Program-made: the position numbers and the translations under genes
The notes under the pieces: model-generated
What the model was told of the DNA's origin: nothing
Database searches by the model: none
Seen by the model: only the letters and a program-made list of their open reading frames with translations
Shown: positions 2,491-46,577 of the stretch, piece after piece
Position numbering within the stretch: the first letter of the stretch is position 1
Layout of the letters: each line of letters begins with the position of its first letter
IMG/VR virus record: IMGVR_UViG_3300042894_001940
Span: 1-49,135 of that record
DNA: 49,135 nucleotides
Source of the DNA: a virus
Reading direction: 5' to 3' (one strand)

Positions 2491-5400
2491 ATGAAGAAAA
2501 TTCTCAACCAACAAATAGAACATTTAGTAAAATTGGAAGAACTTGCAATCATTAGCAATGATGCCCTTGATGCTAGTAATATAGAACTTCAAAGCATGGC
2601 TCAAGACTTGTCCGATATATCTGAAAAGATGTCTACTATTATGGCATCTAGTAAGGAAAGAGATATCAAAGAAGCTGATGTTGCTAAGGTAGAAGATAAA
2701 GAAAAGTCTGACAATAAAAAGGACGACCAGTCTAGTAAAGACAAATCGCTAGAAGAACTTAAAAAGATATCTGCTGCTTTAAAGTCTCAACATAATGTAG
2801 ATGTAGCGGATAAAGCACTTAATGATCCAGTTTACCATAATATGTTTACTCGTATGGATTTGTTAAAAGAGTCATTTGGTAAACTCAAAAATACGTTTAA
2901 GGATAATGATACTGGTAAAACAACTGTTGGTAGTACATTCAAAGGAATAACTAATAACGTATCATCCATTTTTTCTAAGAATGCTAGAAATAGAAACCAG
3001 TACATTACTACTGAACGAGCTGCTGGTTCAGTAAAAACTGATAAGCAGTTGAAAGAACAGTATAAAGAGAAACAAAAACTTTTATACCTTAATAATAAGA
3101 ATGAAAGAAATATGAACGAGAATAGAGGTCTTCTATCTAAAGAAGAATTCCTCAAATCAACTTCACCTGATGCTAAAAAGTACAGAGAAGAACAACAACA
3201 AATTGGTAGTAGATTATCTGAAATCGATTCAAGATACAAATATACCAATCCACAGAAATCTGATAGAGAAAAAGATCTTAGATTCTTTGGCAAAGAAGGC
3301 TCTTGGAAAGCTAAACCAACTGAACCGACGCCTCCATCCGATAAACCATCACCAACTGAACATCCGATTTCAGGTGATGGTTTGGCCATACTTGAACCAT
3401 TAAAAGTAGTAATTGAAAACGAACCTATTACGGTAAAAATAGATAAGGATTCTGCAGATGATTCACAAGAATGTGAATGTGAAAAAACTGATTGCTGTGA
3501 AGAATTATCTAATGCTATAGATTCGATAAAATTTACTATAGAAAAGTTATCAAATAAAATTGCCCCGTTAGTTTCTAGTAATGTAGTTTCCGATGCTAGT
3601 ACTATCAGCAATACAAATACAAATAATGCAAGCAACGCTAATACAAATAATGCAAGCAACGCTATTACCAATAATGCAAGTAATGCAAATACAAATAATG
3701 CAAGCAACGCAAGCAACGCTATTACCAATAATGCAAGCAATACAAATACCAATAATGCAAGCAATGCAAATACCAATAATGCAAGCAACGCTATTACCAA
3801 TAATGCAAGTAATGCAAATACCAGTAATGCAAGTAATGCAAATACCAGTAATGCAAGCAACGCTATTACCAATAATGCAAGCAACGCTATTACCAGTAAT
3901 GCAAGTAATGCAAATACCAATAATGCAAGCAATGCAAATACCAATAATGCAAGCAACGCTATTACCAGTAATGCAAGTAATGCAAATACCAATAATGCAA
4001 GCAACGCTATTACCAGTAATGCAAGTACTAGTTCCAATATAGAAACTAAATTGGAAACAGCAAGATCAACTGAGTTATTCCAAGACAATCAATTATCCTC
4101 GACAAATGACCAGAATAAATTACTAGACGAAACTCTCAAAGTCCAAAAGTTAATTCTCGAAGAACTCAAAAAACGTACTGAAGAAATCATCAAGAAAAAA
4201 GAACCACCTACTAAAAAACCAGATGATGCTGATAAAGATATTGATGTTAACAAACCAAGAAAAACTAAAAACGATAGAACCAATAGAAGACCAATTCCTA
4301 CTAGAAATAACGGTCGTAGACGTAGAGGATTATTTGGTCGATTAGGATTAGGTACTGCAGTTGCCGCTAGTGTTGCAGAAATGAGTACTGATGATAATCA
4401 TACACCTTCTTTAGCTGATGTCGTGCCAGAAGAAAGGTTTCCAAACAGAACAACTAATGCGCCTAGACCAACTACACCGGAAGTACCTAAGACTTCTACT
4501 GGACGTGGAATACTTGATAAAGCTAAAGGCGTATTCAATAAGATTCCTGGTGCCTCCGTATTGAAGAATGCTGGTAAAATGGCATTACGATTAGCAGGTC
4601 CAGCAGCTGCTGCATTAGCTGCTTATGAAGTTGGATCTACCGCTATAGACGCTTATGATGAATCGTTTGGTGAAGGTGGCAAGAAAGTAGTACAAGATCT
4701 TCATCATAAAAAGATCATATCGTATAATTTCGGTGATTCGGAAGTACTAGATTGGAAAGGTATTCAAGAATTACCAACAGAAGATTTGAAGAAACTCATT
4801 GATGCTAAAATAAGATTCAAACCAGAAGATGACGCTAAACTTCATGAAGTATTGACTCATAAATTAGTAACTAGAGATACTAAATCTGAAATCGGTAAAC
4901 CAGAAGTAGTAAAACCAACAGAAGTTAATGGTAAACCAGAAGTTCAATCTGAAATCGGTAAACCAGAAGTTCAATCTGAAATCGGTAAACCAGAAGTTAA
5001 TGGTAAACCAGAAGTTCAATCTGAAATCGGTAAACCAGAAGTTAATGGTAAACCAGAAGTAGTAAAACCAACAGAAGTTAATGGTAAACCAGAAGTAGTA
5101 AAACCAACAGAAGTTAATGGTAAACCAACAGAAGTTAATGGTAAACCAGAAGTTCAATCTGAAATCGGTAATGTATATTCTGAAGATGTCAAGAAGATCT
5201 ATAATGATTTGAAAGAAAACAACAAGTATAGTATTACTAAAAATGAATTGTTGGAAGATGCTGTAGCAGAAGCAAAATCTAAAGGACTAGAGATTTATTC
5301 CAATATTGCTATGGGCGAAGTTAAGCCAATTGCACAACAATTGAGCTTGGATAAAATTAAACCAGAAACTAAAATAGCACCCGAAGCAATCAAACCAAAA

Positions 5401-9567: not shown

Positions 9568-9727
9568 CAGGAACTCCTATAAGGTGGCAATGCTGGGTTC
9601 TTGGTAAATTTTTCTCACACTCGTTAATTAGTGTATTAATTTTATTGGCATTATAAAATGCGCCGAAGATAATGATTACAATCAAAATTGCAACTCCTAT
9701 CAAACTCAAATTGTACTCACTTTTCAT
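9557..9727 (-). CDS. 56-residue single-span membrane protein
   Basis: ATG at 9727 has AGGAG ten bases upstream. The product has one hydrophobic segment (residues 9-24, LIGVAILIVIIIFGAF) and two Cys in a short C-terminal tail. It is coupled to the following gene. Function unknown. Confidence 0.65.
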   Translation of the reverse strand: MKSEYNLSLIGVAILIVIIIFGAFYNANKINTLINECEKNLPRTQHCHLIGVPDDN

Positions 9728-9746
9728 TTGGAACTCCTAAATAATT

Positions 9747-9754
9747 AATAAATA
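9747..9754 (+). promoter_or_regulatory. Candidate late promoter (AATAAATA)
   Basis: AATAAATA, 7 of 8 bases matching the T4 late consensus, lies 56 bases before the plus-strand virion-like gene. The same variant occurs at 14662 and 23504. Confidence 0.45.
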
Positions 9755-9810
9755 ATAATTTATTATATAGTATTGTGGTTTAAAAGTAAACGTTATAAAG
9801 GAGAATTTTA

Positions 9811-10296
9811 GTGTCAAATGTTGTGTACAGATTATATGTTGAAAAATTAGGCAATTCTAATGTGTCGACGTTCGTAGGTAATTATGGCGATGTATTTTAC
9901 GACCCATCACTGCCAATTTTAAAACTCAGTGATGGCGCATCAGCTGGAGGAATAGAAATACCGACAGGGTATATTAATATTCCGCAGGTAGCAATATCAA
10001 ATAATTATGTTTGTGTATTATCCGACTCTGGTAAACACATATTGCACCCAACAACAGATACTACTGCTAGGACAATAACTATACCTGCGTCATCGTCTGT
10101 GAATTATGAACTAGGGACTACCATAACAATTATCAATCAAAATTCTGCAGGAACCCTTACCATTGTTTGTGGGGACACTATGCGGTTGGCAGGTTCTGGT
10201 ATAACTGGAAATAGAACGCTGACTGCCAACGGAATGTGTACTGCAATTAAACTGTCGGCTACTGAATGGATCATATCTGGAACAAATTTAACTTAA
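9811..10296 (+). CDS. Virion/tail-fibre-like protein
   Basis: GTG start with AAGGAG seven bases upstream; 161 residues. The N-terminal module FVGNYGDVFYDPSLPILKLSDGASAGG (given in parts: GDVFYDP, LKLSDG) recurs in structural proteins of marine T4-like phages, and the C-terminus has a beta-rich GTTITIINQNSAGTLTI pattern typical of fibre tips. It is transcribed as an isolated plus-strand pair with the next gene. A surface or receptor-binding accessory role is inferred. Confidence 0.55.
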   Translation: MSNVVYRLYVEKLGNSNVSTFVGNYGDVFYDPSLPILKLSDGASAGGIEIPTGYINIPQVAISNNYVCVLSDSGKHILHPTTDTTARTITIPASSSVNYELGTTITIINQNSAGTLTIVCGDTMRLAGSGITGNRTLTANGMCTAIKLSATEWIISGTNLT

Positions 10297-10314
10297 CCGA
10301 TTGGAGCCTTAAAC

Positions 10315-10860
10315 ATGAGTGCTATTTTAATCGCATCGTACCAAAAACCATCAGCTGCCCCGCCGACTAACAATAAAGTACCAGTTGCATCTATGACAAC
10401 TAATAACCTTATCTATAGTGCAAATTCATCAGTAATACCATTTACTAATGTTAGCATACTCGGAGCTACTTCTCATTCTGGTACCAACTACAAGATAAAA
10501 CAGATTGTGCTGCAAGTAACAGGAGTTACTGATAGTAATAATGAAAAGGTAATTATTAGCGGGTTAGAAGTCCCACTTGTATTAAGTGCTGCAAAACCAC
10601 TACCATCCGGTGGAACATACGCAATTTCTTCGATAGGAACAACCAGAATAATCACACTGACAAACACCAGCGGATTTAGTTCACCAAATACCTTAATATC
10701 AACATTAGCTTATAAAAATGATGCACCAACTCCTACATTAGGAGTTAGAACATTTTTATTTAAATCGGTGACAGATACAGGTATCTCTGGTCCTGCTGCA
10801 TCACAATACGGAACCAATCCCTTTTCGGCATTTAATTTTACGAGTACTGTGACAATTTAA
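10315..10860 (+). CDS. Adhesin-repeat-like beta protein
   Basis: The 181-residue Ser/Thr-rich, beta-strand-like protein has the motifs ITLTNTSGFSS and LISTLAYKNDAPTPTLGVRT, which resemble domains repeated in very large bacterial adhesins. No signal or membrane segment is seen. It follows the fibre-like gene by 18 bases and overlaps the convergent RTX gene by 4 bases. Confidence 0.5.
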   Translation: MSAILIASYQKPSAAPPTNNKVPVASMTTNNLIYSANSSVIPFTNVSILGATSHSGTNYKIKQIVLQVTGVTDSNNEKVIISGLEVPLVLSAAKPLPSGGTYAISSIGTTRIITLTNTSGFSSPNTLISTLAYKNDAPTPTLGVRTFLFKSVTDTGISGPAASQYGTNPFSAFNFTSTVTI

Positions 10861-11480
10861 AGAATAAGATCTGCGCTAGTAATAGTAATTTTAGGCGGGT
10901 TACATGGATTGAGAACTCCAATTAGCTGTATTATAAGTTCAGGATTTTTGTCTCCGTCGATGTTGCCGATCAATGCGTATTGATCTTTACAGTAATAAAC
11001 TTCACCTACTTTAGGTGTGTGATAGTGTTGGAAGTTTCCAGTAAACTTCCAACTTTGCATTCCAGCTTTGTTTAAATTTGCATCCAATTTAGATAAATCG
11101 ATTTTATCTTGCCCTACAGTAAAATCATACACAACATCTACTTCTCGAGTATCCTTAGATATGTCGCCTGTGAACCATTTGAATGTATCCGCTCCAGCAT
11201 CTCCTAGCAGGATATCGCCGTCTGAGCCGCCAACAATTTCATCGTTTCCTTCACCGGCTCTAATAAAATCGATCCCAGCACCACCAATCAATGTATCATC
11301 GTGCCCGCCGCTGTGAATTATATCGTTACCCGCACCACCAAAAACTAAATTTTTAAATTGACCTCTACTTACATACCATTCACCAACTTGGCAATTGATA
11401 TAATGTGTAATTACTCCATCAAAGATAACATCGCTACCCTCAGCAGCGCACGATTCTTCTGGTAAACTAGGTTTTTTCAT
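10857..11480 (-). CDS. RTX-type calcium-binding protein
   Basis: The 207-residue protein has four to five RTX nonapeptides (residues about 45-92: GGAGNDIIH, GGAGIDFIR, GEGNDEIVG, GDAGADTF) followed by a serralysin-like beta region with YDFTVGQDKIDLSKL. Such repeats fold on calcium outside the cell, often after type I secretion. The start at 11480 is preferred because AGGGGA is correctly spaced; an ATG six bases earlier is too close to it. It could be a secreted factor or a virion surface protein; the sequence does not decide. Confidence 0.75.
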   Translation of the reverse strand: MKKPSLPEESCAAEGSDVIFDGVITHYINCQVGEWYVSRGQFKNLVFGGAGNDIIHSGGHDDTLIGGAGIDFIRAGEGNDEIVGGSDGDILLGDAGADTFKWFTGDISKDTREVDVVYDFTVGQDKIDLSKLDANLNKAGMQSWKFTGNFQHYHTPKVGEVYYCKDQYALIGNIDGDKNPELIIQLIGVLNPCNPPKITITSADLIL

Positions 11481-11530
11481 TTGCATTCCCCTTGTATTTT
11501 TTGAAGTTGTTCTTCAGTCAATAAACTCAT
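11477..11530 (-). CDS. 17-residue leader peptide before the RTX gene
   Basis: ATG at 11530 has a GGAG ribosome site; the product MSLLTEEQLQKIQGECK ends in a TGA overlapping the RTX start codon. It would couple translation of the RTX gene. Confidence 0.45.
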   Translation of the reverse strand: MSLLTEEQLQKIQGECK

Positions 11531-11741: not shown

Positions 11742-12136
11742 TTCACTTCTCCTAATACAAATACTGAATTGGTTGAGTACATATTGGATTCTGACATCTC
11801 GTTACCTTCAGCATCACGACCATAAGCAACCTGAAAAGCTCCCATTGAATCATCATACTTGTCATCTATTTTATAGATGAAAACCATAGGACCAATAGTA
11901 GACGAACCGATAGTACCAATAGATTGGTCATCGATTACAAATTGAGTTTTGGTAACGTATTCGAGTTTGAAGCCTGCATCAGTGAAGCGTTTAGCATCGG
12001 CTTTTTTACGATACACTTTGTTGATGTCTACTTCGTTGACCACAGGATAGACGCGAGCAAGCGCCAATTCCTCAGAAGTTGCGATTGCTGCGAAAGAAGC
12101 AGAAGGAATGAAAAAGTAGTTGGTTTGTGTATCCAT
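11738..12136 (-). CDS. Early protein of unknown function
   Basis: The chosen ATG (12136) lies just after GAAGAGGA; an upstream TTG in frame is part of the ribosome site and is rejected. The 132-residue product is acidic and shows no family I recognise. It is the first gene behind one of the repeated early promoters, so probably expressed immediately after infection. Confidence 0.75.
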   Translation of the reverse strand: MDTQTNYFFIPSASFAAIATSEELALARVYPVVNEVDINKVYRKKADAKRFTDAGFKLEYVTKTQFVIDDQSIGTIGSSTIGPMVFIYKIDDKYDDSMGAFQVAYGRDAEGNEMSESNMYSTNSVFVLGEVK

Positions 12137-12158
12137 GATATAAATCCTCTTCAAATTT

Positions 12159-12177
12159 GTTAACCGAATTGGTTAAC
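12159..12177. promoter_or_regulatory. Operator-like dyad GTTAACC-N5-GGTTAAC
   Basis: A perfect 7-bp inverted repeat lies between the -10 box and the ribosome site. Related dyads occur at 14599, 19128, 20376, 32944 and 41108. It may be an operator or an mRNA leader hairpin. Confidence 0.6.
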
Positions 12178-12185
12178 TTACGGCT

Positions 12186-12213
12186 ATTATCCATCATAAT
12201 AGCCAAAGGTCAA
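12186..12213 (-). promoter_or_regulatory. Repeated early promoter, copy 1
   Basis: Minus-strand TTGACC (12208-12213), 16 bases, GATAAT (12186-12191), then the conserved AGCCGTAAGTTAACC. The spacer and -10 form a perfect GGCTATTAT / ATAATAGCC hairpin. This is one of 15 copies in the window. Confidence 0.85.
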
Positions 12214-12245
12214 CAGGGGAAGCAAAATAAATTTAATAATATGGA

Positions 12246-13058: not shown

Positions 13059-13304
13059 TTAGATGTCGGTAGTCTTATTTAATATACTACCTGAGGTTCT
13101 TTGGTGTATCCGAGAAAGTACTTCCTTAAAGGCTCCTCCTTTAGTCAAGCCTCCTGACATTCTTACTGAATTACATAATGCAGGAGTAGATAGTTGAATT
13201 TCTAAATGTGGGTTTGCTTTCTTAAATGAATCAAGTTCGGACATCTTCATAATCCGTTCTGTGACTTCACCTGTTTCCTTATTCTTGAAATCGTAGGTTG
13301 GCAT
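13059..13304 (-). CDS. FmdB-like small protein without zinc ligands
   Basis: The 81-residue protein starts MPTYDFKNKETGEVTERIMK, the N-terminus of FmdB-type regulators, but lacks the usual CxxC pair. Similar proteins are common in T4-like marine phages. Its start overlaps the preceding stop codon. The regulatory function is inferred from the family only. Confidence 0.55.
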   Translation of the reverse strand: MPTYDFKNKETGEVTERIMKMSELDSFKKANPHLEIQLSTPALCNSVRMSGGLTKGGAFKEVLSRIHQRTSGSILNKTTDI

Positions 13305-14354: not shown

Positions 14355-14570
14355 TTACACATCCTCCGAAATTGATAAAATATCCAAACCATCACCGTGT
14401 TTGAAAATTGCTCTTGCTTTTGCATCGTCTTCATCAAACGCTACAATGTAGTCGAATCCGTGGACAATGTCTTTTTTGAAGAAGTAATCGAATTTTTCAT
14501 ATTCCACTTCAAAAGATTTCATATTAGCTGGAAGGGATTTGCTTAGTTCGTTTAAGTTTATTGATCTCAT
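14355..14570 (-). CDS. Unknown early protein, 71 residues
   Basis: First gene behind early promoter copy 2; ATG at 14570 follows GAAGAGGAATTATAAA. The product (MRSINLNELSKSLPA) is soluble, with a FDEDDAKARAIFKHGDG segment. No family recognised. Confidence 0.75.
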   Translation of the reverse strand: MRSINLNELSKSLPANMKSFEVEYEKFDYFFKKDIVHGFDYIVAFDEDDAKARAIFKHGDGLDILSISEDV

Positions 14571-14624
14571 TTTATAATTCCTCTTCAAGTTTAAATTTGT
14601 AACCGAACTGGTTAACTTACGGCT

Positions 14625-14652
14625 ATTATCCTTGATTATACCAAAAGGTCAA
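14625..14652 (-). promoter_or_regulatory. Repeated early promoter, copy 2
   Basis: Minus-strand TTGACC (14647-14652), 16 bases, GATAAT (14625-14630), AGCCGTAAGTTAACC. An imperfect GTTAACC dyad follows at 14599-14616. Confidence 0.85.
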
Positions 14653-14661
14653 CAATTATTT

Positions 14662-14696: not shown

Positions 14697-14987
14697 ATGG
14701 AAGGCGAGATCACTAGTTGGCTTGATTTAATTGGTAAAGTTGGATTCCCCATTGTTTCTGCTATTGCAGCAGGATACTTCATTTTCTTAACTCTGAAATT
14801 TATCTTGGATGGCACGTTAAGTTCACTCAAGAATATATCGAGTATCATTATTCGGCTAGATCATAGAATCGATATAATGTCGAACGACCTAATAAGAATT
14901 GATGTTCTTGTATCCAGTGCTCTTGGATTGAAGCCTGATACAAGTAGAATAGCACGTTCTGAACAATCAGATCATAGAGGAGACTAG
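14697..14987 (+). CDS. Membrane protein of lysis-like cassette, paralogue 1
   Basis: AGGAG ribosome site. The 96-residue protein has one membrane span (residues about 16-37) followed by an amphipathic helix with RLDHRIDIMSNDLIRID. The next gene encodes a protein of the same layout (GFPI before the span, similar coiled helix after it), so they arose by duplication. One-span proteins with a trailing coil occur in phage lysis regions, which the holin-like gene downstream supports; function unproven. Confidence 0.6.
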   Translation: MEGEITSWLDLIGKVGFPIVSAIAAGYFIFLTLKFILDGTLSSLKNISSIIIRLDHRIDIMSNDLIRIDVLVSSALGLKPDTSRIARSEQSDHRGD

Positions 14988-14988
14988 T

Positions 14989-15276
14989 ATGAGTCTTAAT
15001 GATGTAGCAAAAGTTATCAATGAATATGGATTTCCTATTATCGAGACTATAGGCATTGCGTATATTCTTTATTATGTGTGGGTTTGGACCACGACTAAAG
15101 TCAAGCCGGTAATATCAGAAGTTAATACTGTTCTTATAGCACTCATCGACAGAGTCAGATTGTTGGATAATGATATGCTAAGGCTAACCCAGAAAGTAAA
15201 CGTGGTTCTTCATCTTAAAGGCGTCGAACCATTCATGTATAAGGAAAAAGAAGATGAGCGAAACGACAAAGGGTGA
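14989..15276 (+). CDS. Membrane protein of lysis-like cassette, paralogue 2
   Basis: The 95-residue protein has one span (residues about 14-34, GFPIIETIGIAYILYYVWVW) and a coil with RVRLLDNDMLRLTQKVNVVL. It resembles the preceding gene in length and layout. It overlaps the next frame by 23 bases. Confidence 0.6.
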   Translation: MSLNDVAKVINEYGFPIIETIGIAYILYYVWVWTTTKVKPVISEVNTVLIALIDRVRLLDNDMLRLTQKVNVVLHLKGVEPFMYKEKEDERNDKG

Positions 15277-15591
15277 ATTCATCGAAAAGATTGTATTTGC
15301 CGCAGTTCCTATTCTGTTCAGCTGTATTGTGTACCTAGTATCAGATTTGAATACTGCCAAAACTAAATTGACTGAATTGGATAATAAGATTTCTATAGTA
15401 GTATCTCCAGAAAATACACCAAGACCAAACCAAGACCAAACCAAGCAGCAGAATTAGCAAGAGAAAAGTTAAGGTTGGATTTTGTTAATGAACAGAATGA
15501 AAGTCTGATAAGACATACACAAAATAATGGTCAGATTAATTTATTGACTTGGAGAGTAACTGAACTGGAGAAGTTAAATGGGAAAAAGTAA
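15254..15591 (+). pseudogene. One-span coiled-coil protein disrupted by 11-bp duplication
   Basis: The ATG frame encodes a membrane span (residues about 12-29) and stops after 67 residues. The -1 frame continues directly with AAELAREKLRLDFVNEQNES, a coiled helix ending at 15589-15591. At the junction the 11-base unit ACCAAGACCAA is perfectly duplicated (15418-15439). Removing one copy restores a single frame of about 108 residues, with a span plus periplasmic-type coil as in i-spanin-like or cassette paralogues. No slippery heptamer is present, so a slippage mutation or on/off switch is more likely than programmed frameshifting. Confidence 0.7.
15418..15445 (+). repeat. 11-bp tandem duplication causing a frameshift
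   Basis: ACCAAGACCAA occurs at 15418-15428 and 15429-15439, followed by a partial third copy ACCAAG. The unit is not a multiple of 3, so copy number sets the frame. Confidence 0.9.
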
Positions 15592-15847
15592 AATATTACA
15601 AGGTGGTTGGAGAACTGCTTTGGCATGGAGTTACGTAATAATCTGTATGTTTGATTTCTGTATTGGCCCAATCATATACAATTTCCTACAATTCTATAAT
15701 CCAGGTCAACACGTAGATATGTGGCAAGCAATAACCTTGCAGGGTGGAGGTTTATATCATCTTGCCATGGGTGCAATCTTAGGCATTTCTGCCCATGGCC
15801 GCACCCAGGAAAAATTAGCATCAACTAAAGAAAGTTCGGCTGATTAG
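15578..15847 (+). CDS. Putative holin
   Basis: This 89-residue protein has two clear hydrophobic segments (about 13-36 and 54-74) and the pattern WSYVIICMFDFCIGPI with GGGLYHLAMGAILGISAHGR, which resembles multi-span phage holins. Holins open the inner membrane to release endolysins. It overlaps the end of the interrupted gene by 14 bases and is the last gene of the cassette. Confidence 0.6.
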   Translation: MGKSKILQGGWRTALAWSYVIICMFDFCIGPIIYNFLQFYNPGQHVDMWQAITLQGGGLYHLAMGAILGISAHGRTQEKLASTKESSAD

Positions 15848-15965: not shown

Positions 15966-16724
15966 ATGACCAGCACAAGTATATATCAATCAATAGTACC
16001 TACCTACCTTTATATCAAACAACATTCCGTTACCAAAAAGAAATATTTTGGCAAGACTACTAGAGACCCATACAAATATAATGGTTCTGGCGAATATTGG
16101 TCCAAACATATCAAGAAGCATGGAAAAGAACATATTGTTACCTTGTGGGTTTCTGATTTGTACTACGACACATCAATTGTTGATATTGCACTACATTTTT
16201 CATTCGATAATAATATTGTTGAATCTAAAGAATGGGCAAATCTAGAACCAGAAAATGGCTTGAATGGTGGTGCTTCTGGCAGGAAGTTTTCCGAAGAATC
16301 CAAAGCCAAACTGTCTGTAGCAAAGAAAGGAATATCAAGATCTGAAGAAACTAAAGCCAAAATGTCTGCTGCAATGAAAGGTGTTCCTAAACCTCCCCGT
16401 ACAGCAGAACATTGTGCTAAAATATCTGCTAGACAGAAAGGCGTTCCTAAACCAGAATTATCTGCCAGACAAAAAGGCGTTCCTCTATCAGAGGAAACTA
16501 AAGCAAAAATATCTACGGCAATGAAAGGTGTTCCTAAACCAGAAGGATTTGGTGCAAAAGTATCTGCTGCAATGAAAGGTGTTCCTAAACCTCCTCGTAC
16601 AGCAGAACATAAAGCCAAGTTAAGAGTTCCTAAATCAAAATTCTTTTCAATTATTGAAACTAGAAAGACTTATGACAAGGGAAATCTTTCCAGACATTAT
16701 CCTGAATTTAAGCAATATTACTGA
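15966..16724 (+). CDS. GIY-YIG-like homing endonuclease with NUMOD3 repeats
   Basis: The 252-residue protein has a degenerate GIY-YIG module (YLYIKQH then KKYFGKTTRD, residues about 14-34) followed by a chain of NUMOD3 DNA-binding repeats (SEETKAKMSAAMKGVPKP and variants, about residues 105-225). This is the layout of Seg-type free-standing homing endonucleases, which cut related genomes to copy themselves. It lies on the strand opposite to its downstream neighbour, has its own late promoter, and overlaps the convergent phosphoesterase gene by 17 bases. Confidence 0.85.
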   Translation: MTSTSIYQSIVPTYLYIKQHSVTKKKYFGKTTRDPYKYNGSGEYWSKHIKKHGKEHIVTLWVSDLYYDTSIVDIALHFSFDNNIVESKEWANLEPENGLNGGASGRKFSEESKAKLSVAKKGISRSEETKAKMSAAMKGVPKPPRTAEHCAKISARQKGVPKPELSARQKGVPLSEETKAKISTAMKGVPKPEGFGAKVSAAMKGVPKPPRTAEHKAKLRVPKSKFFSIIETRKTYDKGNLSRHYPEFKQYY

Positions 16725-18926: not shown

Positions 18927-19109
18927 TTAATAAAATTCTATTTCACGCGATATAGGAACAATTTGTATAATCTTGCCATCTGGATATTCTTCCAGAACTA
19001 TTTCGGTAAATTTTTCTAATCTTTTTGAATTTGCTACCCCAATGTTACTTACTAAAATAAGTTTTGTATCATAGGGTGTTTCAACCGTAACAATATATTT
19101 TTGCATCAT
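18927..19109 (-). CDS. Unknown early protein, 60 residues
   Basis: First gene behind promoter copy 3, with leader GAAGAGGAATTAA. The product (MMQKYIVTVETPYDTKLILV) looks like a small alpha/beta protein. Function unknown. Confidence 0.7.
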   Translation of the reverse strand: MMQKYIVTVETPYDTKLILVSNIGVANSKRLEKFTEIVLEEYPDGKIIQIVPISREIEFY

Positions 19110-19154
19110 TTAATTCCTCTTCAATTGGTTGACCGAATTGGTTAACTTACGGCT

Positions 19155-19182
19155 ATTATCCTTGATTATAGGAAAAGGTCAA
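19155..19182 (-). promoter_or_regulatory. Repeated early promoter, copy 3
   Basis: Minus-strand TTGACC (19177-19182), 16 bases, GATAAT (19155-19160), AGCCGTAAGTTAACC. A one-mismatch GTTGACC dyad follows at 19128-19146. Confidence 0.85.
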
Positions 19183-19190
19183 CATTTATT

Positions 19191-19700
19191 TCAACCCTTC
19201 TTGTATTCAGTTAATACCAGTGTGATATAGTTTATCGTCTCGGGATAATTAGGAATCTTTCTGTGGTGTCTAATTACAGCATTCTCTCCTGCATTATATC
19301 CTGCTAATGCCAACTTCTTATTACCATCAAAGGTATCCAATAAGAATCTAAGAAACCGTACACCACCATAAATGTTCTCTTTGACGTTGGTACGATCTGA
19401 TACACCAAACCTTTCTGCAGTAGCAGGCATCAGTTGCATCAATCCTACCGCACCTTTCTTACTAACAGCTTTGGTTCGATAGGTGCTTTCAGTTTTGATT
19501 ACAGCACGAACCAGCTTTTCGTCCACCTGATACTTCAATGAAGCATTATGGATATAACGGTCAATGTCTTTAGGAGTAATCTTCGGCTTAGTTGTAACCA
19601 TTTGGTATGAATGATTAACGAACTTGGCAGTTCCTGTACTTGTATAGATTTGAGTACTAGGAGCCATCATTGATGATACTATCAGAATGGTCTTAATCAT
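19191..19700 (-). CDS. Secreted lytic transglycosylase (SLT fold)
   Basis: The 169-residue protein has a hydrophobic N-terminus and an SLT domain: LVRAVIKTESTYRTKAVS (catalytic Glu in KTES), GAVGLMQLMPATAERFGV, and ALAGYNAGENAV. It cuts peptidoglycan glycan strands with formation of anhydro ends, in the periplasm. It overlaps the upstream secreted-peptide gene by 4 bases. With the SleB-like and GH19 enzymes it makes three wall hydrolases. Confidence 0.9.
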   Translation of the reverse strand: MIKTILIVSSMMAPSTQIYTSTGTAKFVNHSYQMVTTKPKITPKDIDRYIHNASLKYQVDEKLVRAVIKTESTYRTKAVSKKGAVGLMQLMPATAERFGVSDRTNVKENIYGGVRFLRFLLDTFDGNKKLALAGYNAGENAVIRHHRKIPNYPETINYITLVLTEYKKG

Positions 19701-19918: not shown

Positions 19919-20354
19919 TGATTGTCTCGTAGATATGGTAGCAGTAAACTAAATCGATTATTGGTTCGTCATAAATGTATTCAGTAGTAGGAGTTTGTGT
20001 ACCAATATAGTCGCCCCATTTGTGCCATCTCCAACCTTCATATCTAGGTTGACTAGATTTAGTGATTTTATGCAATAGCACTACGAATTCACGGTCAGGT
20101 GATAACAGTTCAGGAATGACTTCAAGTAAATTTTCAATTCCATCACATACGCCATAATACCATGCAGAATCATTTGTTAGAAATTCAGGATCTCTAATAT
20201 ATGATTTAGAATGCTCGATTGCATGTAACCGAGACGAATAATTGCTTATATATGATTTAGAACGCTCGAGTGCATGTAACTGAAACGAATAATCGCTCAG
20301 ATAAACGCCTTCTTGTAATTGATGTTCTTGTATAATCGGGTTACTTTTTAACAT
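19908..20354 (-). CDS. Unknown early protein with internal repeat
   Basis: ATG at 20354 follows the repeated GAAGAGGAATTATAAA leader. The 148-residue product carries a 17-residue direct repeat near its N-terminus (SDYSFQLHALERSKSYI and SNYSSRLHAIEHSKSYI). No family recognised. Confidence 0.7.
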   Translation of the reverse strand: MLKSNPIIQEHQLQEGVYLSDYSFQLHALERSKSYISNYSSRLHAIEHSKSYIRDPEFLTNDSAWYYGVCDGIENLLEVIPELLSPDREFVVLLHKITKSSQPRYEGWRWHKWGDYIGTQTPTTEYIYDEPIIDLVYCYHIYETISEN

Positions 20355-20402
20355 TTTATAATTCCTCTTCAATTGGTTGACCGAATTGGTTAACTTACGG
20401 CT

Positions 20403-20430
20403 ATTATCCTTGATTATACCAAAAGGTCAA
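20403..20430 (-). promoter_or_regulatory. Repeated early promoter, copy 4
   Basis: Minus-strand TTGACC (20425-20430), 16 bases, GATAAT (20403-20408), AGCCGTAAGTTAACC. A one-mismatch dyad follows at 20376-20394. Confidence 0.85.
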
Positions 20431-20439
20431 CATTTATTT

Positions 20440-32636: not shown

Positions 32637-32915
32637 TTAAAACTTGATATTGGTCCAAAAGTGTTTTTTTATTTTCCACTTTTCAACAACTGGCTTACCC
32701 ATATCATCAATACCAGTGCAAATGTAAGCTACAGTTTTCTTGATGTTAGCAAATCTAACAGAACCATCACAGATTGCAATCTCAAATTTGAATCCATTAT
32801 CAATACCCCAAGTTCCTTGACCTTCAGCTTTACCTTCACTAACTCTGTATTCGAAATTAGCAAAACCATTACTGAATAATCCACCTTCTTTTACTGCATC
32901 GTTGAAATAAGCCAT
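32637..32915 (-). CDS. Unknown early protein, 92 residues
   Basis: Beta-rich soluble protein (MAYFNDAVKEGGLFSNGFAN), first gene behind promoter copy 11 with the repeated leader. No family recognised. Confidence 0.7.
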   Translation of the reverse strand: MAYFNDAVKEGGLFSNGFANFEYRVSEGKAEGQGTWGIDNGFKFEIAICDGSVRFANIKKTVAYICTGIDDMGKPVVEKWKIKKHFWTNIKF

Positions 32916-32970
32916 TTTATAATTCCTCTTCAAGTTTAAATTTGTTAACCCGATTGGTTAACTTACGGCT

Positions 32971-32998
32971 ATTATCCTTGATTATAAGAAAAGGTCAA
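32971..32998 (-). promoter_or_regulatory. Repeated early promoter, copy 11
   Basis: Minus-strand TTGACC (32993-32998), 16 bases, GATAAT (32971-32976), AGCCGTAAGTTAACC. A perfect GTTAACC dyad follows at 32944-32962. Confidence 0.85.
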
Positions 32999-33071
32999 CA
33001 GGCAAATGAAAATAAATTTCGACATAAATACTTTTGAGGGATAGCATAGGGATATGCTTGGACAAGGACGT

Positions 33072-40724: not shown

Positions 40725-41078
40725 TTAAGCCACCAATACGAATTCAGGAGAGAAGTATTCACGTTCAGCAATAGGATCTTGGATGTCTTCTAAGTAATCG
40801 CCATTGAATTTAGTACCAAACACCATTTCTTTGAAGTTATCTTTCAGGAATTGTGTAGCAAAATCAGAGAACGATAAGTCGTGGCTGTTGTATGCATAGT
40901 TGAACTCTACACATCTTTCAACGCGATTTGCTTCAACTTCAATTTCTTCTACTGAAGTGATGTTAGCATTTTTCATTCTAGCAAAAGCAATCACTTTGAA
41001 TGCTTGTTCTAGTTGTTTGTTAGAAGTTTGTTGGAAAGCTGGAGTAGCCGAAACAAATTTAGTAGTACCTTTTCTCAT
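40725..41078 (-). CDS. Unknown early protein, 117 residues
   Basis: Starts MRKGTTKFVSATPAFQQTSN, followed by a helical charged core. First gene behind promoter copy 14. Function unknown. Confidence 0.7.
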   Translation of the reverse strand: MRKGTTKFVSATPAFQQTSNKQLEQAFKVIAFARMKNANITSVEEIEVEANRVERCVEFNYAYNSHDLSFSDFATQFLKDNFKEMVFGTKFNGDYLEDIQDPIAEREYFSPEFVLVA

Positions 41079-41134
41079 TTTATAATTCCTATATCAAGTT
41101 TAAATTTGTTAACCCGATTGGTTAACTTACGGCT

Positions 41135-41162
41135 ATTATCCATCAATTGATGGAAAGGTCAA
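41135..41162 (-). promoter_or_regulatory. Repeated early promoter, copy 14
   Basis: Minus-strand TTGACC (41157-41162), 16 bases, GATAAT (41135-41140). The spacer holds the 16-base palindrome TCCATCAATTGATGGA; a perfect GTTAACC dyad follows at 41108-41126. Confidence 0.85.
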
Positions 41163-41170
41163 CACTTTAT

Positions 41171-41383
41171 TTAAATAATTTCACATCTTTTTATTAAAAT
41201 ATCCATCTGAGCTTTAGTCAGATTCATATCTTTCAACATATTGCTGAAAGCAGATTCGTAGTAACCAGTGACATAAGCATAGTTCACTGTTTTATCAACA
41301 TTCCAACTAGCATTTCGAGATGATTCTTTTGCATTTTCAAATAATGCATCTAAACTTGCTTGGATTTGTTGTTCTTTGTTCAT
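41171..41383 (-). CDS. Unknown early protein, 70 residues
   Basis: Helical protein (MNKEQQIQASLDALFENAKE), sole gene between promoter copies 14 and 15, with the repeated leader. Function unknown. Confidence 0.7.
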   Translation of the reverse strand: MNKEQQIQASLDALFENAKESSRNASWNVDKTVNYAYVTGYYESAFSNMLKDMNLTKAQMDILIKRCEII

Positions 41384-43436: not shown

Positions 43437-44432
43437 TCAACCATGGCACGAAATGCACTCGGATTTATTAGTTTGCACTCCACTTTCTGATCGAATATAG
43501 TACAGACTTTTAATGTATGGGTCCAAAAATGCCATCTTATGAACTGAACTAATATACTCTTCAGTCTCTTCAGAACTAAAGAACAGATTGATACTTTGAG
43601 CTTGATCAATATACTTCTGACGTACTGAAGCCAATCTAATGATCTGAGTTTGGTCAATTTCAAAAGCAGTCTTGAACACTAACTTCTCTTCGTCAGTAAG
43701 CCAATCAACGTGCTGTACTGAACCTTTATGATTGATAATGTCCTTCACTACTTCTTCAGAATAAACGTCCTTCTCTTTCATTAGTTTGAGTAAGGTAGGA
43801 TTCACTCGATCAATCTTTCCAGCTGCAGTATTCTGTACGAAGGCGTTTTTGTATATTGGTTCAATGCCTTGGCTAACGGAACCACATATCAGAGCAGAAC
43901 TCAGGTTAGGAGCAATAGCAATTCTGTGAGTATTTCTTACACCATATCCTTTACACCATTCTGGTTCTCCAAATGCTGAAGCCATCCATTGAGAAGCTCT
44001 TAACGATTCATCATGAAGATGTTTGAAGATTTCTGTATTCTTCAGATTAGCTTCGAATGATTCAAATGCAATATTGTGTTCTTGGAGATATGTGTGGAAT
44101 CCTAACAATCCTAATCCTAGAGCTCGGCTTTTAGTAGCAAATCGTACTACCTTTTCCATCCCAGTAATTTTACTACCAATATTGATTAGGTCTTGATTCA
44201 CACAATCAAGAAATACTGTTGCATCAAATACCGCAGTAGTATCTTTCCACTCATCATAGAGAGAAGCATTCATTGATGATAATACGCAACTAAAGGTATG
44301 GTCGTCATCAGAGAACAATTGTATTTCTGAACAATTGTGTACCAATATGTCATTGGCAAAAAAATTATGATTATCTTCTACCGATATGTCATAAACGTCT
44401 TCTTCATAATCTAAATATTCAATTGCTATCAT
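43437..44432 (-). CDS. nrdA: NrdA C-terminal half fused to split-intein C fragment
   Basis: Residues 1-33 are an intein C fragment (VYDISVEDNHNFFANDILVHN spans the motif; it ends in VHN with the splicing His-Asn). Residue 34 is Cys, followed by SEIQLFSDDDHTFSCVLSSMN-type NrdA sequence and ending with the redox tail SECISCHG. With the partner gene at 45412 protein trans-splicing would give a class I reductase of about 568 residues. The +1 Cys corresponds to the SNLC(x)EI active-site cysteine. RBS AGAGGA. Confidence 0.9.
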   Translation of the reverse strand: MIAIEYLDYEEDVYDISVEDNHNFFANDILVHNCSEIQLFSDDDHTFSCVLSSMNASLYDEWKDTTAVFDATVFLDCVNQDLINIGSKITGMEKVVRFATKSRALGLGLLGFHTYLQEHNIAFESFEANLKNTEIFKHLHDESLRASQWMASAFGEPEWCKGYGVRNTHRIAIAPNLSSALICGSVSQGIEPIYKNAFVQNTAAGKIDRVNPTLLKLMKEKDVYSEEVVKDIINHKGSVQHVDWLTDEEKLVFKTAFEIDQTQIIRLASVRQKYIDQAQSINLFFSSEETEEYISSVHKMAFLDPYIKSLYYIRSESGVQTNKSECISCHG

Positions 44433-44441
44433 GTTATCCTC

Positions 44442-45356
44442 TTAAATATAATCTATAGGGTTTAAATCTTTACACCACTTTTGATGTATCTCACGCTTGT
44501 ATCCAGTTCGTTCTTCTACTATCGGAAATAGATCCTTTCCATAATTGAATCTATACTTGGACAAAGATTTTGGAAATTGTAAACCAGTTTTCAACATATA
44601 CACCTTTCTGAAAAATGCCAGTGATGGAATATTCTGCAACTTGTTGCTGAGTAGTATAAATTCTTGTAAAAACTCTTCGTTTGTTATACCACTAAACCTG
44701 CTATTATTTTCGCCATCCGTATTACTAGTAGCGCCACTCCAATCTTCAGTCAACCTTTCATCATTTATTGAACAATATATACGTTCACCTGTCACCTTAT
44801 TATAATATGTATGATTTCCTTTAGAATGATGAACCCATTCACCTGATAATATTTTTGGATGATTTTTATCAAAAGATCCCATTATATCTCCAGTAATTAC
44901 ACATTTAACTGGAAATGTGTCTTTCCTTGATTCAGAAATCCTTCTTATACCATCTTCAGTTTGCCATCCATGATTGTGTCGAAAATCTGAACTATTTTGT
45001 TTCATCCAGGCATAAGATGATCTTACCTTATTAGATATTATGGTAGGAATGCTTCCGTACCTTGGGTTAGTTTTGATGCCGTTTATAATACATCTAACTG
45101 CAACAAAATCGCCCCTATCACCATAGGCTTTATATCTCAATCTATGAGCAAACAAATGTTCTTCAGGCAATAATACTACTAAATTAGTGTCTATATCAGT
45201 TCCACCAACCGATCTCGGAATTATATGATGAACCTCTGTATATAATGAATCGTATTGTAATCTAAAGTCATGTTGATTGCGTTCTAACATCCTTTTTCTA
45301 GGATCAGTATTCTGGCAATGTGAAACAAATTCGTCGTATAATTTTTTATAATTCAT
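44442..45356 (-). CDS. Free-standing HNH homing endonuclease within split nrdA
   Basis: The 304-residue protein has an HNH core (TEVHHIIPRSVGGTDIDTNL, LPEEHLFAHRL; residues about 41-73) and a long C-terminal part probably for DNA recognition. It sits exactly between the intein N and C halves, as free-standing endonucleases do in fractured genes of phage metagenomes. It has its own late promoter inside an inverted repeat. It ends 9 bases before the C-half start. Confidence 0.85.
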   Translation of the reverse strand: MNYKKLYDEFVSHCQNTDPRKRMLERNQHDFRLQYDSLYTEVHHIIPRSVGGTDIDTNLVVLLPEEHLFAHRLRYKAYGDRGDFVAVRCIINGIKTNPRYGSIPTIISNKVRSSYAWMKQNSSDFRHNHGWQTEDGIRRISESRKDTFPVKCVITGDIMGSFDKNHPKILSGEWVHHSKGNHTYYNKVTGERIYCSINDERLTEDWSGATSNTDGENNSRFSGITNEEFLQEFILLSNKLQNIPSLAFFRKVYMLKTGLQFPKSLSKYRFNYGKDLFPIVEERTGYKREIHQKWCKDLNPIDYI

Positions 45357-45357
45357 A

Positions 45358-45399
45358 AAATCTCCTTTAATGATATAGTATTTATAATAAAGGAGATTT
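45358..45399 (-). promoter_or_regulatory. Late promoter inside a ribosome-site-masking inverted repeat
   Basis: Arms AAATCTCCTTTA and TAAAGGAGATTT (45388-45399 and 45358-45369 on the minus strand) pair perfectly over 12 bp. The 18-base loop contains TATAAATA (45379-45386). The downstream arm is the ribosome site of the HNH gene. Read-through RNA would mask it; RNA starting in the loop would not. This parallels known control of T4 intron endonuclease I-TevI. Confidence 0.75.
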
Positions 45400-45411
45400 C
45401 ACTACACAGAA

Positions 45412-46551
45412 CTATTTCAATAGCAGAATATCGTTTTCTTGAAGTTGGCTTGCTTCGACGTATCCTCTATTCTCAGTGAATACCTTATGACATGGAGTAC
45501 ATTTTATAAACTTGCCAGTCCGTTTATCTGTAATTTTCATGAGTTTTGCATTACGTCTCATCTGAGCGGACTTGGTAATTTTCTTCCACTCACCCACACC
45601 ACTTTCTACATTATACGACCAAACCTTCCAATTTTCAACATCATCATTTTTACCTAGGTAATTATTCAAACCTTCCATAGATACTTCAATCTCACCACTC
45701 ATATCACCTTTGATATTGATTCTAGTGTCGCCCGATAAACACAAGTTAGATGCCTTTACTGTAAGGCCCAAGTCTTTGTACATTTGAGGATTTTGGCGAT
45801 TTACTTTATCGATGAACTCAAAGTATCCTTTACCAGTAATCATTTTAAGTTTCAATGCTTTCTGATATCGTTCAATTGCGTCAGGATCTCCTGCTTCTAA
45901 TCTAGCAATGAACGCGTCAGTAACATTCCAACCAATATTAGCATCATCAGGTTGTTTGTTAATATAGTTAACTAATTCAAAGAAATCTGGGTGGTCAATT
46001 TCAATATAGCCAGCCCATGCTCCTCTACGTTGTGAACCTTGGCTAACGTCTCTCGACATTTGAACGTAATCTTTGAATACAGGAAGTACTCCAGAAGCAC
46101 TACCTTTAATGCCCGAGATTTTAGAACCTCTAGGTCTAATACCTCCCAAGTAACTAGAAGTACCAAATCCATTCTTTGAAAGAATAGCAGCTTCTGTTTG
46201 TGAGTTATAGAATGAGAAAATAGAATCTCCTACTACTCCTCCTGAACAAGAAACAGGACAACCAAATCCAGTACCCATATTAGACAATACAGGAGTCGAA
46301 GCTGCTAACCAACCGTTCCATAATAGATTGAAGAATTTAGTTTCCCATTCAGCAGGATTACTTGTATACGAAGCAGCATGACTAGCCACTCTTGTATATA
46401 CGGATTTCAAGTCTGGATGAGATGGAGTCAAGTAGCTACCTTTAAGCATCTGCCATGCAGCAGTAGTACACCAGTTAGGTAATAATCCTTGTTCTTGAAG
46501 GAGTTTACGTTCTTCACCTAATTCTTCATAAATTGATAATTCATTCACCAT
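45412..46551 (-). CDS. nrdA: NrdA N-terminal half fused to split-intein N fragment
   Basis: ATG 46551. Residues 1-270 are class I ribonucleotide reductase alpha subunit (ASTPVLSNMGTGFGCPVSC, SKNGFGTSSYLGGIRPRGS, QGSQRRGAWAGYIEIDHPDF), without an N-terminal ATP cone. Residues 271-379 are an intein N fragment: CLSGDTRINI, later KFIKCTPCHKVFTENRGYVE with the block B TxxH motif, ending LLLK. The extein ends KASNL. It reduces ribonucleotides with NrdB after trans-splicing. Confidence 0.92.
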   Translation of the reverse strand: MVNELSIYEELGEERKLLQEQGLLPNWCTTAAWQMLKGSYLTPSHPDLKSVYTRVASHAASYTSNPAEWETKFFNLLWNGWLAASTPVLSNMGTGFGCPVSCSGGVVGDSIFSFYNSQTEAAILSKNGFGTSSYLGGIRPRGSKISGIKGSASGVLPVFKDYVQMSRDVSQGSQRRGAWAGYIEIDHPDFFELVNYINKQPDDANIGWNVTDAFIARLEAGDPDAIERYQKALKLKMITGKGYFEFIDKVNRQNPQMYKDLGLTVKASNLCLSGDTRINIKGDMSGEIEVSMEGLNNYLGKNDDVENWKVWSYNVESGVGEWKKITKSAQMRRNAKLMKITDKRTGKFIKCTPCHKVFTENRGYVEASQLQENDILLLK

Positions 46552-46577
46552 GTAAAATTTCCTCAAGTTTTAATTTA

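Follow-up and report, generated by a model that had tools for sequence, protein, structure and literature searches.

In the phage sequence analysed here, one gene, g3, was split by the tandem duplication of an 11-bp unit. The stretch examined, hereafter the window, is an IMG/VR record of 49,135 bases that is classed as linear, such records often being fragments. The duplication probably reflects recent slippage that put an accessory and dispensable gene out of frame, one that would belong to a lysis or membrane module. The fate of g3 thus resembles ordinary gene loss, and not a proven on/off switch.

The whole g3 region, coil frame included, occupies positions 15254-15591 on the plus strand. 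As it now reads, the gene consists of a truncated ORF of 67 codons (15254..15457, plus strand), which encodes a membrane helix, a linker and a short out-of-frame tail, followed by the remainder, a coil frame (15445..15591, plus strand) that is out of frame with the start of g3 and is without a good start of its own, the first candidate being a TTG at 15475. The array is found at 15418-15445 (plus strand), in the linker between helix and coil. The initial annotation had described a doubled 11-bp unit with a partial third copy, and this is precisely what Tandem Repeats Finder (TRF) reports, with a period of 11, 2.5 copies and 100% matches; copy 1 spans 15418-15428, copy 2 spans 15429-15439 and the partial third copy 15440-15445. 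This is the only perfect array of at least 24 bases with a period of 4-20 in the window, and none of 40 simulated first-order Markov windows contained a perfect array of at least 28 bases. The other TRF rows scoring at least 50 in the window all have periods divisible by 3. These include long tandem arrays with periods of 15-72 inside a 1039-aa ORF (3610-5154), which keep the frame, unlike the 11-bp array. The latter makes copy number set the reading frame of g3: the ORF has 67 codons with the duplication and 108 codons with a single copy, as in contig L003. A scan for promoters and terminators returned consensus matches only.

L003 is the nearest distinct relative, with 93.3% identity across 1.7 kb of the g3 region. 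Its g3 contains a single copy of the 11-bp unit and is an uninterrupted ORF. It had been predicted from the window that the duplication splits a gene for a membrane span and a coil, and that removal of one copy would yield one frame of about 108 residues; L003, with one copy, has the gene whole and of exactly 108 codons. Comparison with related phages likewise revealed one gene, and not two separate genes with their own starts. Elsewhere, about 1.9 kb of the window (9585-11525) is replaced in L003 by about 14 bases, and a NUMOD3 homing-endonuclease-type gene at 15966-16724 is absent from L003, in which the sequences flanking it at 15843 and 16741 meet.

A further contig, L002 from sample 3300042890, is a second assembly of nearly the same phage and carries an array identical to that of the window. 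Across 15,795 nt, the two sequences differ at 14 positions, all of them confined to 57 bp (13101-13157), so that L002 and the window represent almost one strain. Lying in one patch, the 14 differences do not count as independent SNPs, which makes L002 weaker evidence for the array than a more distant strain would be. The patch, which alters a few residues in a small gene of which L002 has a different version, resembles a short recombination patch. Since L002 has the same duplication, the suggestion that the latter might be an assembly error finds no support. It is true that L002 equals the window over 15.8 kb save for this one patch and may therefore come from a related sample; however, two contigs that differ elsewhere have the same array, and the array, at 28 bases, is shorter than usual reads. 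An error of assembly or sequencing is accordingly extremely unlikely. Both same-strain contigs (2/2) carry the duplication, and when the one-copy arrangement of this strain was used as an exact probe, it gave 0 matches among the assembled contigs of the viral_contigs collection. A search with the coil peptide matched L002 and L003 only. In the 'phages' collection, nothing was found by DNA-level searches with the g3 region, in near and distant modes, or by tblastn with the g3 of L003.

The L003 sequence also hints at how the break arose. In its g3 linker, the motif ACCAA occurs three times, two of the occurrences being 11 bases apart, so that slippage between them would duplicate 11 bases. The sequence thus points to slippage as the probable mechanism: a replication slip between the linker repeats would have duplicated 11 bp in this strain, shifting the frame and removing the coil from a product that would otherwise comprise one membrane helix, a short proline-containing linker and a coil. 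AlphaFold2, applied to 12 members of the family (mean pLDDT 74.9, pTM 0.28), placed the helices of the L003 protein at residues 6-50 and 58-106, and on this model the array would fall in the short linker leading from the membrane helix to the coil. With respect to timing, the window and L003 show 9 synonymous and 6 non-synonymous differences in the coil codons, against 4 synonymous and 3 other ones in the N-terminal 59 codons of g3. These figures suggest that the coil was constrained during most of the divergence between the two phages and that the break is recent. Against this reading, the coil downstream of the break displays no further decay in the window, although the latter is identical here to L002 and the two are too close to be informative on this point. 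The array could in principle revert, although reversion is not indicated by the present data.

Alternatively, ribosomal frameshifting or re-initiation might still yield the complete protein, or else a coil produced on its own. A TTG is indeed present in the coil frame about 18 bases behind the stop, and in relatives whose g3 is interrupted by a nonsense codon (L186 and L187, see below) an ATG follows directly after the stop. We nevertheless regard this as very unlikely, since inspection by eye revealed neither a slippery heptamer in the frame overlap nor a good ribosome-binding site ahead of the TTG, and the RNA structure around the array is not beyond chance (z -0.44).

The g3 family was gathered by searches with the truncated product, with the family alignment and with the L096 form of the protein, and comprises 93 contigs in addition to the window. 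The alignment search was limited to the best 80 of 182 relatives, and as short products obtain lower scores, short copies may be under-counted and the count of breaks is a lower bound. Within these limits, g3 is uninterrupted in 87 of the 94 sequences (85 assigned by script, and L110 and L111 read by eye), runs off the contig end in 2 (L016 and L147) and is broken in 5, through at least three events. The broken copies are those of the window, of L102 (the same contig as L002), of L108 and L109, which share a nonsense codon, and of L189, which has suffered a deletion. L186 and L187, which are larger pieces of the L108 and L109 contigs, are identical to each other across 12,315 nt; their coil departs from the L184/L096 type by three changes, all of which alter the protein and none of which is silent. 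Relative to L184, which has a whole g3 of 105 codons, L189 lacks 2.65 kb, and the deletion joins the start of g3 to another gene; the resulting fusion (L189:5965-6280) ends in the end of a glycosyltransferase-like gene, named by eye.

All five broken contigs belong to the compact types of g3 (those of the window and L003 and of L184; 105-108 codons), and all come from related phages. The compact types number 11 contigs, 6 intact and 5 broken by at least three events; L110 and L111 are about as short yet align as shortened long forms, and with them the figures become 13 contigs and 8 intact. By comparison, none of the 79 complete ORFs of the long form is broken, with the alignment search limited as stated to 80 of 182 relatives. 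It would thus appear that the coil is dispensable and that compact forms of g3 have lost it repeatedly.

In each of the three losses of the coil, the membrane helix stays intact. This might indicate that truncation is adaptive, the short g3 being kept by selection either because the helix alone is favoured or because translation of the next gene, g4, is uncoupled from the end of g3. The gene g4 (15578..15847, plus strand) encodes a hydrophobic protein of 89 aa with a weak match to the 'holin' family phrog_3427 (E 0.0021), and its start overlaps the coil frame by the final 14 bases of the latter, in L003 as in the window, so that an early stop in g3 could change the expression of g4. However, we estimate from the shape of the gene that three breaks would all fall behind the helix about one time in three by chance, and the L184 type is without this overlap, its next gene starting just behind g3. 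Selection for the short form is therefore unlikely as well, and repeated loss of a dispensable coil remains the reading that we prefer.

The initial annotation had further suggested that slippage in the array could switch the gene on and off. The 11-bp copy number would then slip during phage growth, leaving a minority of virions with a whole gene and with varied timing of lysis. In favour of such a reversible switch, the length of the unit is not divisible by 3, the copies in the array match perfectly, and the one-copy arrangement, as seen in L003, gives a whole gene. The phase-variable (contingency) genes of bacteria that operate by slippage similarly carry within the ORF a tandem array with a unit length not divisible by three. 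The g3 of the window resembles them in this respect but differs in having only 2.5 units, which is short for a contingency tract, in the lack of conservation of the repeat and in the single state seen in the strain. Among 67 distinct g3-family ORFs, only that of the window and L002 has the array, and the other 66 contain no perfect tandem array of at least 16 bases with a period of 4-20. The one-copy allele of the strain is absent from viral_contigs, and both same-strain contigs share one state. Moreover, the coil losses in relatives are of kinds that do not readily switch back, namely a nonsense codon and a 2.65-kb deletion. The proposed switch is not supported by these observations and we consider it unlikely. 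The stronger proposition, according to which the population maintains slippage-driven frameshift switching of a lysis gene of the membrane/coil type, with sister virions differing in lysis timing and the coil losses of relatives representing frozen 'off' states, is more doubtful still. A literature search for slippage switching in phages, associated with holins or with phage-encoded repeats, found no precedent in the portions of the literature that were available, which does not in itself demonstrate that there is none.

The same annotation had placed g3 in a lysis-like cassette, and the neighbours of its homologues lend this indirect support. In L006, the gene directly after g3 encodes a phage lysozyme (PF00959, E 1.4e-50; phrog_7 endolysin) and the next one an Rz-like spanin (phrog_1275, E 5.6e-7). 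In L123, a small gene of unknown family separates g3 from an N-acetylmuramidase behind it (PF11860, E 3.7e-54), and L007 has an SLT gene about 0.6 kb upstream of g3. The g3 products of these three contigs resemble that of L003 in having an N-terminal membrane segment followed by a coil, with whole-protein identities of 35-38%, but they differ from the g3 of the window in that their coils are longer (about 141-188 residues), contain no tandem repeat and are not broken. With four lysin queries taken from relatives, a lysin was matched in 18 of the 94 sequences and in none of the other 76, the loci having been searched with flanks of at most 3-6 kb and the window over its full 49 kb. The window itself contains no PF00959 lysozyme; its candidate lysin is an SLT transglycosylase (19191..19700, minus strand) located about 3.3 kb from g3 on the opposite strand. 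Holin-type profile matches of varying weakness were obtained for g1, g2 and g4, and the g3 of L003 marginally matched the holin family phrog_1296 (E 0.0044). Pfam and NCBIfam offered no usable name for g1-g4 and gave zero matches for g3 of the window or of L003. Taken together, the lysin neighbours of some homologues and the weak holin-type matches suggest that g3 acts in lysis, probably as part of a phage lysis or membrane module, and make 'lysis-like' a fair description rather than a demonstrated one.

Immediately upstream of g3 lie g1 (14697..14987, plus strand), encoding a one-span membrane protein of 96 aa, and its paralogue g2 (14989..15276, plus strand), encoding 95 aa. Both match phrog_18771 (E 1.4e-29 and 9.4e-24, respectively) over nearly the full length of its 93-position profile, g1 covering positions 4-90 and g2 positions 3-87; g1 also has a weaker match to the 'holin' family phrog_4898 (E 3.2e-5). 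In 77 of 80 fetched loci (L002 and L003 being included as L017 and L018), g1 is found upstream of g2 at a distance of no more than 2.5 kb. Two adjacent phrog_18771 genes resembling g1 and g2 also immediately precede csgF and csgG in Pelagibacter phage HTVC008M and Methylophilales phage Melnitz. The window differs from these curli-type regions in being without CsgG, and a g3 homologue was not found in the 'phages' collection. The csgG gene lies inside 20 of the 80 fetched loci, and CsgG is encoded by 12 of the 13 records tested, the exception being the window, a 49-kb fragment. In L184, csgF, csgG, a curlin-repeat-like gene and two further genes precede g3, with g2 and g1 further on, on the opposite strand; of the names used for this contig, csgF, curlin and FecR-like are based on position and on resemblance to Melnitz, CsgG alone having been tested with a profile. 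For the csgGF genes of Melnitz, a role in lysis timing has been proposed (PMC9004378).

Other features of the window may merit attention. A repeat of about 65-105 bases, with copies about 86-93% alike, is dispersed over the window, at 14568-14661, 19104-19191, 20352-20439, 32913-33000 and 41073-41178, and also at about 12134-12215; some copies are intergenic, and the repeat could possibly be a promoter or another regulatory element. The large subunit of ribonucleotide reductase is encoded in two pieces (43437-46566), which match consecutive parts of the same profile and are separated by an ORF of 304 aa (44442-45356), possibly as the result of an intron or of a homing-gene insertion.

As a mutation, the event described here is ordinary, being a slip at a short repeat that truncates a gene. 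The g3 family is of some use beyond this case: its one-span coil protein is widespread, uncharacterised in its role and present in some lysis cassettes, and in related large phages the compact version has been deprived of the coil on at least three occasions. In phages with the compact form, g3 occupies the same region as the phrog_18771 pairs and csgF/csgG, the role of which is debated. A real switch, if true, would make g3 an unusual example of a phage lysis gene that varies through slippage.
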